From an uncultured Geobacteraceae bacterium (lineage in GTDB: Bacteria; Desulfobacterota; Desulfuromonadia; Geobacterales; Pseudopelobacteraceae), in assembly GCA_903939115.1 (NCBI GenBank), contig CAJAFV010000070.1, positions 28,332 to 92,331 on the forward strand: a stretch of 64,000 nucleotides of DNA. Direction: 5' to 3'. Both the position numbers and the translations under genes were made by a program. Shown piece by piece: positions 61,787 through 64,000 of the stretch. Each line of letters starts with the position of its first letter. The stretch's first letter is position 1. The notes under the pieces are model-generated. The model was not told the DNA's origin. It worked only from the letters and a program-made list of their open reading frames with translations, and made no database searches.

Positions 61787-61874
61787 GGAGAGGTGTCCGA
61801 GTGGTCGATGGTGCCTGACTCGAAATCAGGTGTACGGAAACGTACCTAGGGTTCGAATCCCTACCTCTCCGCCA
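61787..61874 (+). tRNA. tRNA-Ser (CGA anticodon)
   Basis: GGAGAGG...CCTCTCC acceptor stem, anticodon arm CCTGA-CTCGAAA-TCAGG, long variable arm, GTTCGAATC T-loop, GCCA end. Confidence 0.95.
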
Positions 61875-62079
61875 CAAAAACAATGGGTTACGACTTTCGT
61901 GTTGTGACCCTTTTGTTTGTATGGCTGATTTATGTACCAGATATGTACCAAAAAAACTGAGGATGTTTTGTCGATTGCCGCCGTCACGGTCGAACGATCT
62001 GTAATCGGAAACAAGGAAAGACTTGTAAAGGGGGTAGATTATTCAACCATCACTTATAGTGAAGGTAAACATTCAGGTA

Positions 62080-62222
62080 TTACTATGTCACCGTGAATTA
62101 ACCGTTATGTCACCGTGAACCCTCCGTGACTACTCCGTGAGTGTTCTGTGAATTAACCGTTATGCTCCCGTGGCCTCACCGTTCAACCTGCGTAAAATAT
62201 CCGTTATGCCTTCGGTGCTATT
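62080..62222. repeat. Phased array of 11-bp degenerate repeats (consensus CCGTKANNNNN)
   Basis: Consecutive 11-mers from 62091: CCGTGAATTAA, CCGTTATGTCA, CCGTGAACCCT, CCGTGACTACT, CCGTGAGTGTT, CTGTGAATTAA, CCGTTATGCTC, CCGTGGCCTCA, CCGTTCAACCT, GCGTAAAATAT, CCGTTATGCCT, TCGGTGCTATT. A degenerate unit TTACTATGTCA lies at 62080-62090. Confidence 0.85.
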
Positions 62223-62257: not shown

Positions 62258-62278
62258 AATGTGACGAAACATCACATT
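62258..62278. repeat. Inverted repeat AATGTGA-N7-TCACATT
   Basis: AATGTGA (62258-62264), CGAAACA, TCACATT (62272-62278). Confidence 0.65.
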
Positions 62279-62415
62279 ATAACTGAATCACCACCACCGT
62301 GAAGGAATCCGCCATTGCTCGACCGCCTGAGAAGCCGCTGGAAGGGCGAACGGCTTCAGGGACATAGTGCCGCCTGCCCTTATTCCTGAAAGACCATGGA
62401 AATGTGCTTGCTGCT

Positions 62416-62430
62416 CGTTACCGTGTAACG
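62416..62430. promoter_or_regulatory. Palindrome copy 1 (CGTTACCGTGTAACG, inverted orientation)
   Basis: Reverse complement of CGTTACACGGTAACG; spans the stop codon of the 62418..62675 gene. Confidence 0.75.
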
Positions 62431-62675
62431 GTCAAGTAAGTATCCCATTCAGGCGTGTCAATCTGAAGAGTCTTGAGAATGGCATCATCATCTTCAATAA
62501 CAAGCCGCTCCAACATCTGCCGCCTCGTTACACGGTAACGCTGTGCAAGTCGGTTAAGAGCAAAGTGTATGCTGACAGACACCCTAGTATCAATACGCCG
62601 CTCCCCTTCGCCATTATTGCACCGTGATCTATACGCCGCTTGTCTCTCTGCGGATGTTTTAGCCATTGTGGACAC
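62418..62675 (-). CDS. Small putative DNA-binding protein (85 aa)
   Basis: MSTMAKTSAERQAAYRSRCNNGEGERRIDTRVSVSIHFALNRLAQRYRVTRRQMLERLVIEDDDAILKTLQIDTPEWDTYLTVTR; basic N-terminus and RVSVSIHFALNRLAQRYRVTRRQMLERL resembling a beta-strand plus two helices (RHH-like). Confidence 0.65.
   Translation of the reverse strand: MSTMAKTSAERQAAYRSRCNNGEGERRIDTRVSVSIHFALNRLAQRYRVTRRQMLERLVIEDDDAILKTLQIDTPEWDTYLTVTR
62526..62540. promoter_or_regulatory. Palindrome copy 2 (CGTTACACGGTAACG), intragenic
   Basis: Exact copy; on the minus strand it encodes the RYRVT codons. Confidence 0.75.
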
Positions 62676-62688
62676 CTCCCCTGAATAT

Positions 62689-62703
62689 CGTTACACGGTA
62701 ACG
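62689..62703. promoter_or_regulatory. Palindrome copy 3 (CGTTACACGGTAACG), upstream of the small gene
   Basis: Exact copy 14 bp upstream of ATG 62675 (minus strand), an operator-like position. Confidence 0.75.
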
Positions 62704-62936: not shown

Positions 62937-63008
62937 AACTCAGTTTATATGGATTGAATAATTGACTTTGAGGGAACTTTGCTGACCTGCTAATCAGGGA
63001 CTAGAAAG

Positions 63009-63051
63009 CCCGTACTAAAGAGTTATATACTCTGGTACGGGCTTTTTTTAT
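63009..63051 (+). terminator. Terminator-like hairpin in the leader of the PEP-CTERM gene
   Basis: AAGCCCGTACTAAAGAG-TTATATA-CTCTGGTACGGGCTT plus T tract, ending about 25 nt before ATG 63076. Confidence 0.8.
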
Positions 63052-63075
63052 TATCTTTAAAATAGGAGTTCCACG

Positions 63076-63813
63076 ATGCTAAAAAAGAAGTTTGCTGCAT
63101 TTATCGCTGTAGCATTAATTCAGCTGTCTTCAAGTGCTGCTTTTGCTGCTTTTGCTGACCTTGATTTAGTTCAAGTAGTATATGAACGTAATGGCGGCGC
63201 TGAGTATGCCACCGATCTTGGCAACATTAGGTCTGGTTTAAGTAATTACGATGTATTTAAAGATGGCGTTTGGCAGACTTATATTCCAATTTTTGCGCCT
63301 GTCAATAACCCTGCTAATTTTTCTCTTGTTTATTTTGCTTTTGATAGATCAACAAATCAACTATGGGCGACTGGCAGTTCTTACAATCAAATACCTCCAG
63401 TAATTAATGGAAGTAATGCAGGTATAGTAGGACTTAAGTCTGGCACTACAAGCATGTATTCTCTCTATAACTCACAGGGCGGTAGTTACTACACTGGCTT
63501 AACATCTAATTATAACTCTTACAAAAATAGGCTTTCAACTCCTGTTGGTTCTCTGGCAAACACCATTAATGCCGCAACACGTGCAAATACCGAAGCCAGT
63601 CTTGCTAGCTTAACCTACAGCAATACTATTACTCAGTCACTTTACTACTGGCCTGACGCAACAACCACCGTGGCATCAGAAAAAGTCGGCATGAGAGTAG
63701 CCTCTATTACCTCGTATGTCACTGTCACACCAATCCCACCCGCATTTCTGCTAATGGGTTCAGGCCTTGTTGGATTAGCTGGAATGAGGAAAAGAATTAA
63801 AGTTGAAATATAA
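63076..63813 (+). CDS. PEP-CTERM-type sorting-signal protein
   Basis: Signal peptide; C-terminal TPIPPAFLLMGSGLVGLAGMRKRIKVEI (Pro-rich motif, TM helix, basic tail). Confidence 0.85.
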   Translation: MLKKKFAAFIAVALIQLSSSAAFAAFADLDLVQVVYERNGGAEYATDLGNIRSGLSNYDVFKDGVWQTYIPIFAPVNNPANFSLVYFAFDRSTNQLWATGSSYNQIPPVINGSNAGIVGLKSGTTSMYSLYNSQGGSYYTGLTSNYNSYKNRLSTPVGSLANTINAATRANTEASLASLTYSNTITQSLYYWPDATTTVASEKVGMRVASITSYVTVTPIPPAFLLMGSGLVGLAGMRKRIKVEI

Positions 63814-63971: not shown

Positions 63972-64000
63972 CCCCCCCCCCCCCCCCCCCCCCCCCCCCC
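63972..64000. other. Poly-C homopolymer at the window end (probable assembly artefact)
   Basis: 29 consecutive C residues running to the end of the window. Confidence 0.8.

Follow-up and report, generated by a model that had tools for sequence, protein, structure and literature searches.

An orphan array of phased 11-bp repeats beside a tRNA-Ser gene shares its core with putative iterons inside phage replication-initiator genes

The parC/ParR system of plasmid R1 has 11-bp repeats with a ribbon-helix-helix-type (RHH-type) gene nearby. The replication origin of phage lambda contains four iterons (ITN1-4) and an adjacent A+T-rich stretch, and plasmid-borne copies of the iterons ITN3-4 together with oop inhibit lambda replication (PMC3349717). 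In PLE of Vibrio cholerae there are three iterons, semi-palindromic and about 30 bp long, which are bound by a RepA encoded by PLE itself (PMC8263062). The 64-kb window described here, by which we mean the whole stretch of Geobacteraceae DNA that was analysed, carries an array of 11-bp units next to a tRNA-Ser gene. In common with ori-lambda and its O protein, the locus presents several phased dyad iterons, and in phages that have this core the array likewise falls within the initiator gene, which is of the O-like/DnaD-like functional class. Unlike ori-lambda with its four iterons, the array in the window has twelve 11-bp units and no initiator gene. It also resembles the satellite origin of PLE in being a non-coding iteron cluster, for which PLE provides a precedent within an integrated element (PMC8263062), but PLE encodes RepA whereas no initiator is seen at the array in the window.

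The array (62091..62222, plus strand) comprises 12 units that keep register every 11 nt from 62091 and share a CCGTKA core, with no slippage; its definition rests on phase, column information and shuffles. In order, units 1-6 read CCGTGAATTAA CCGTTATGTCA CCGTGAACCCT CCGTGACTACT CCGTGAGTGTT CTGTGAATTAA and units 7-12 read CCGTTATGCTC CCGTGGCCTCA CCGTTCAACCT GCGTAAAATAT CCGTTATGCCT TCGGTGCTATT. Units 1-9 and 11 are clear, unit 10 is weak and unit 12 is poor, and CCGTKA or a near match is kept in 11 of the 12. A half unit, TATGTCA (62084..62090, plus strand), lies 5' of unit 1 and completes it as the palindrome TCACCGTGA. Three complete 9-bp palindromes of the form TMACCGTKA follow one another at 11 bp (62088..62118; starts at 62088, 62099 and 62110), and a fourth, TAACCGTTA, is located at 62154..62162. 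Over 153 bp, the autocorrelation of the array is 0.47 at 11, 0.51 at 22, 0.42 at 33, 0.51 at 44 and 0.47 at 55 bp, and the summed score is 2.72 as against 1.75 at the next best place in the window. The score of a ten-unit stack is 0.88, above the maximum of 0.68 reached when the whole window was Markov-shuffled 200 times. An earlier note on this DNA had claimed that CCGTGA or CCGTTA recurs every 11 nt without slippage, and the units from 62091, the 11-bp autocorrelation peak and the shuffles all bear this out. Its claim that no ORF explains the repeat also holds, because stop codons occur in all six frames and no ORF passes through the array. The 5-unit higher-order period proposed there is seen in the recurrence of units 1-2 as units 6-7, but periods of 22 and 44 bp are at least as strong. 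TRF calls only short pieces of the region (62084-62116 and 62113-62140) because the linkers differ.

The information content is confined largely to the core. Columns 1-6 carry 1.16, 1.54, 2.18, 1.52, 0.73 and 0.96 bits and linker columns 7-11 carry 0.14, 0.11, 0.17, 0.45 and 0.65 bits (null mean 0.20 for both sets), columns 7-10 being at chance level and column 11 alone marginal (p 0.02). A core that is kept beside a random linker is the pattern expected of binding sites that are, or recently were, under selection. The array could instead be an aged 11-bp minisatellite without binding function. A 5-unit duplication is visible in it, and four exact units occur at 112 places among 84,980 genomes, mostly as plain tandem duplications with equal linkers. 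However, decay would hit all columns alike, whereas here the core is kept and linker columns 7-10 are random, and we regard a minisatellite as very unlikely. The description of the locus in the earlier note as a helically phased, iteron-like array of putative protein-binding sites fits well.

The 4.76-Mb genome has no second such array, and in it pairs of CCGTKA at 11 bp otherwise occur once, inside a kinase gene. The conservation in relatives that the earlier note envisaged did not emerge: a four-unit pattern with three mismatches, run over 147 genomes (the source and 146 relatives), revealed no second array of this kind among the 146 at the patterns used, two isolated matches (G023 and G024) aside. 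Two further matches were rejected as further arrays: in G031 an 11-bp repeat, CYGTGATGACG, and in G004 a match that overlaps a histidine-kinase gene. No DNA similar to the array is present in 72,556 plasmids and 50,697 phage records. At the level of the phylum, three more arrays with 11-bp CCGTTA units occur in two genomes (L527-L529), between or beside ordinary genes, and the core is therefore not exclusive to phages. Arrays of 11-bp CCGTTA units on several contigs of a single Cloacimonadota genome (JAJBBH01; L091, L097, L111, L162, L174) and of a single Saprospiraceae genome (JAGNXB01; L087, L130, L165) are a dispersed repeat.

Three or more units at 11 bp are found in 111 viral contigs of IMG/VR. 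In 52 of these an ORF of 100 aa or more contains the array; 41 such ORFs are non-redundant, and 32 of the 41 run antisense to their array. As a set, the array-bearing ORFs most often match DnaD-like helicase loaders and replication initiation proteins. When 22 of the ORFs were scanned singly, 15 matched a replication family (O/DnaD-like) at 1e-5 or better, one gave a weak match, one was a baseplate protein and five had no match; these 22 were not sampled strictly at random, since the first five were chosen at sight. Unequal linkers like those in the window are seen in the scanned viral arrays L203, L231, L241, L251 and L253. The closest unit sequence is that of phage contig L295 (CTGTTAACTAA CCGTGAATTAA CCGTTACTTCA CCGTTATCGCA), where the stretch that holds them reads as a portion of an initiator gene; L295 is the sole viral contig to match the 17-mer CCGTGAATTAACCGTTA of units 1-2. 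Eight viral contigs that match CCGTTATGTCACCGTGA were set aside as a coincidence within one coat-type protein gene. Among 277 genomes of the class to which the source organism belongs, the sole other exact three-unit array, L522, sits inside a phage initiator ORF (phrog_16167, E 1e-42) with phage-type neighbours, in a prophage-like region from the same taxonomic order as the source organism. A control pattern with 10-bp spacing was found in 80 contigs with 20 in-ORF cases, fewer than with 11 bp, and some of these ORFs are initiators too, so that part of the signal comes from the core and not from the exact spacing. A control with 12-bp spacing was dropped in favour of the 10-bp one as uninformative, since 12 is a codon multiple.

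Putative iterons with the CCGTKA (TMACCGTKA) core are present inside O/DnaD-like initiator genes of several PHROGs, for example in viral contigs L188-L190, L194, L203, L231, L241, L250, L251, L253, L262 and L295, and in L522. Many uncharacterised phage initiators of the O/DnaD-like type thus appear, from sequence comparison, to share this core at about one helical turn within their own genes. No description of such a shared core was found in the open-access literature searched, which is not proof of absence.

We consider it somewhat better than an even chance, roughly 0.55, that the array in the window represents replication-origin iterons of the phage O/DnaD-like type stranded at tRNA-Ser. 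It consists of tandem phased iterons with a conserved core, and both core and spacing are common to the arrays of phage initiator genes; its 12 units, more than in most phage examples, speak against this reading, as do the lack of an initiator gene or clear remnant of one next to it, the initiators picked up by the 10-bp control, the bacterial arrays among ordinary genes and the failure to find another tRNA-Ser end in the assembly. The earlier note had offered an iteron-, centromere- or partition-like role, and the replication-iteron part of that guess is strengthened by the occurrence of core and spacing inside phage initiator genes, L522 included, whereas the centromere and partition part is not. 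When the surroundings of the array were searched for a decayed initiator gene, the only matches were to peptides encoded by the iterons themselves (SHG, TVT, SR). The whole assembly contains no match to phrog_16167, and its matches to phrog_270 are generic and were rejected as evidence of an initiator. No initiator gene overlaps or adjoins the array in the sequence at hand, which stops with the contig 1.8 kb to the right. Because no initiator is present, the array is termed orphan and origin-like and is not filed as a complete member.

The nearest gene codes for an RHH-type, CopB/RepA2-like protein of 82 aa (62418..62666, minus strand; 85 aa from a GTG at 62675). Its small family shows low-score kinship to CopB/RepA2 and to RepC of IncL/M, both regulators of plasmid replication, and also weakly matches RepB-RCR_reg. 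Nine of 12 family members match NF010256 (best 1.9e-5), while the protein in the window does not at E 0.1; because it does not reach the curated cut-off for CopB/RepA2, it is labelled CopB/RepA2-like and not a member. A PDB search with a monomer model of the protein gave no significant match, and the 17 weak matches to this predicted structure include several RHH proteins, namely MatP, AtaR2, TacA1 and Arc. Three putative operator palindromes accompany the gene, one upstream of it (62689..62703), one inside it at RYRVT codons (62526..62540) and one overlapping its stop codon (62416..62430). All three are exact copies of CGTTACACGGTAACG, and the genome has no other exact CGTTAC-N3-GTAACG site. 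Loci of relatives have GTTAC-N3-GTAAC sites (at most one mismatch) near -30, near -58 and at the 3' end, and in many cases a further one at the RYxVT codons, with a spacer that varies (TGC, GCA, CGG); at least one upstream site is present in 12 of the 15 loci compared. This 5-3-5 palindrome presumably resembles matS, the site of the RHH protein MatP. The layout suggests that the gene may be autoregulated by looping.

Relatives of this gene occur in IS66 elements, in IS21 (istA/istB), on a 2.65-kb plasmid or alone, and none was found in phage records and viral contigs. The family of palindrome-bracketed CopB/RepA2-like RHH genes includes the window (62416-62703) and L063, L065, L066, L014-L018 and L069-L071. 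In two genomes of different families, a relative is flanked by the istA and istB genes of one and the same IS21-type element (L065, 132-2831; L066, 765-3464). On Burkholderiales plasmids (L015-L018) a relative is the constant neighbour of IS66 transposase genes and is possibly an IS66 passenger. The Raoultella plasmid NZ_AP021996.1 (L014; 2,653 bp) carries a relative together with operator-type palindromes, five in number, but lacks a recognised replication gene.

The neighbouring protein raises the question of whether the array is its binding site, as an operator, a parC-like partition site or, in an integrated plasmid-like element, a site for copy-number handcuffing. Gene and array are 200 bp apart, the protein's family is distantly related to regulators of plasmid replication, and RHH proteins often bind repeats spaced by one helical turn. 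Moreover, the genomic operators GTTACCGTGTAAC have TnACCGTG in common with units 1 and 3. However, what is conserved among relatives is GTTAC-N3-GTAAC with a variable spacer, so the CCGTG common to operator and array is largely spacer. The array is also situated past the gene's 3' end, and no 11-bp array exists at the examined loci of the gene's relatives. The resemblance to R1 parC/ParR, which the earlier note had drawn, extends to the 11-bp repeats and the RHH-type gene nearby but not further: the array is one uninterrupted block and not two sets around a promoter, and the adjacent protein looks CopB/RepA2-like, not ParR-like, by weak family matches. The ParM, ParA or Rep gene that the note proposed to look for was not found beside the array in the sequence at hand, nor was a ParM-like gene found in the assembly by a search run without a positive control. 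Binding by the neighbouring protein is thus rather unlikely to account for the array.

The tRNA-Ser (CGA) gene (61787..61874, plus strand) is followed by a terminator-like hairpin (61885..61910, plus strand). The stretch conserved with relatives around this gene stops at 61918, and the array starts about 170 bp further on. The left flank of the array (62000..62083) is A+T-rich, at 60-68% in 40-bp blocks compared with 49% for the window, and could conceivably serve as an unwinding region; A+T content beside the phage example arrays is widely variable. A promoter-like site directed into the array, TTCACG-16-TATAAT (10/12; 62276..62303, minus strand), overlaps with its first hexamer an extra CCGTGAA at 62297. 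No promoter-like site lies within the array, and the number of such sites in the array region shows no excess over shuffles. In an Rfam search of the array region, the tRNA alone scored above threshold. Farther to the right, a hairpin with a T run (AGCCCGTAC...GTACGGGCTTTTTTT; 62960-63075) lies 5' of a PEP-CTERM-type ORF at 63076 and is a possible attenuator or riboswitch, with no riboswitch match in Rfam. The contig finishes with a run of 29 C (63972..64000), probably an assembly end or a sequencing artefact. Because this probable assembly end is 1.8 kb from the array, the remainder of the element is out of view.

Genes for tRNAs, tRNA-Ser among them, are common attachment sites for integrating elements. 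In a genome of the same genus (G010), a relative of the 82-aa neighbour gene comes after the corresponding tRNA-Ser, and about 1.3 kb past it lies a fragment that weakly matches a phage head maturation protease, which suggests that mobile DNA enters at this spot. A search of the assembly for another copy of the tRNA-Ser end found none. Adjacency to tRNA-Ser, being typical of integration sites, also suits a reading of the array as terminal or arm-type repeats for a transposase or integrase whose mobile element has been lost, such as an IS21-type end or integrase arms. The ends of IS21-type elements consist of repeated sites, with transposase sites about two helical turns apart, and L065 combines repeats of about 22 bp near both IS21 ends with a relative of the neighbour gene. 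However, the IS21 core of L065 differs from that of the array, and the 2.1 kb to the right of tRNA-Ser, where the contig stops, contain no transposase or integrase ORF, istA and istB included. The lack of similar DNA in the plasmid and phage records likewise counts against this reading, and an unbroken row of 12 phased sites is not what integrase arms would usually have. We therefore find it quite unlikely.

Under the preferred reading of phage-type origin iterons, each 11-bp unit would be centred on a TMACCGTKA dyad, complete in four copies, and would be bound by an initiator dimer. With one dimer per helical turn on the same face of the DNA, many dimers could load together, and the resulting nucleoprotein would open the adjacent A+T-rich stretch. 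The other end of the integrated element would have been lost at the contig end. A solitary array in non-coding DNA at tRNA-Ser is most likely the leftover, or a part dependent on factors in trans, of an integrated phage- or satellite-like element, with a putative origin function and a putative phage or satellite descent. As a more specific possibility, the array might act in trans as a mimic of a phage origin: an integrated element that lacks an initiator would either replicate with the one supplied by an infecting phage, or titrate it and thereby block phage replication. By analogy with the inhibition exerted by plasmid-borne lambda iterons together with oop, the titrating or blocking form may be plausible, and a mimic of either form is nevertheless quite improbable. 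The array is accordingly best seen as a probable fossil of an integrated phage or satellite and, less likely, as a trans-dependent origin or decoy.

An unexplained repeat has now become a testable statement. If a free-standing chromosomal copy of these sites binds phage initiators, it would represent the fossil of an origin or else a decoy that occurs naturally against phage. The iteron core shared across phage initiator genes may outweigh in worth the copy carried by the window itself.
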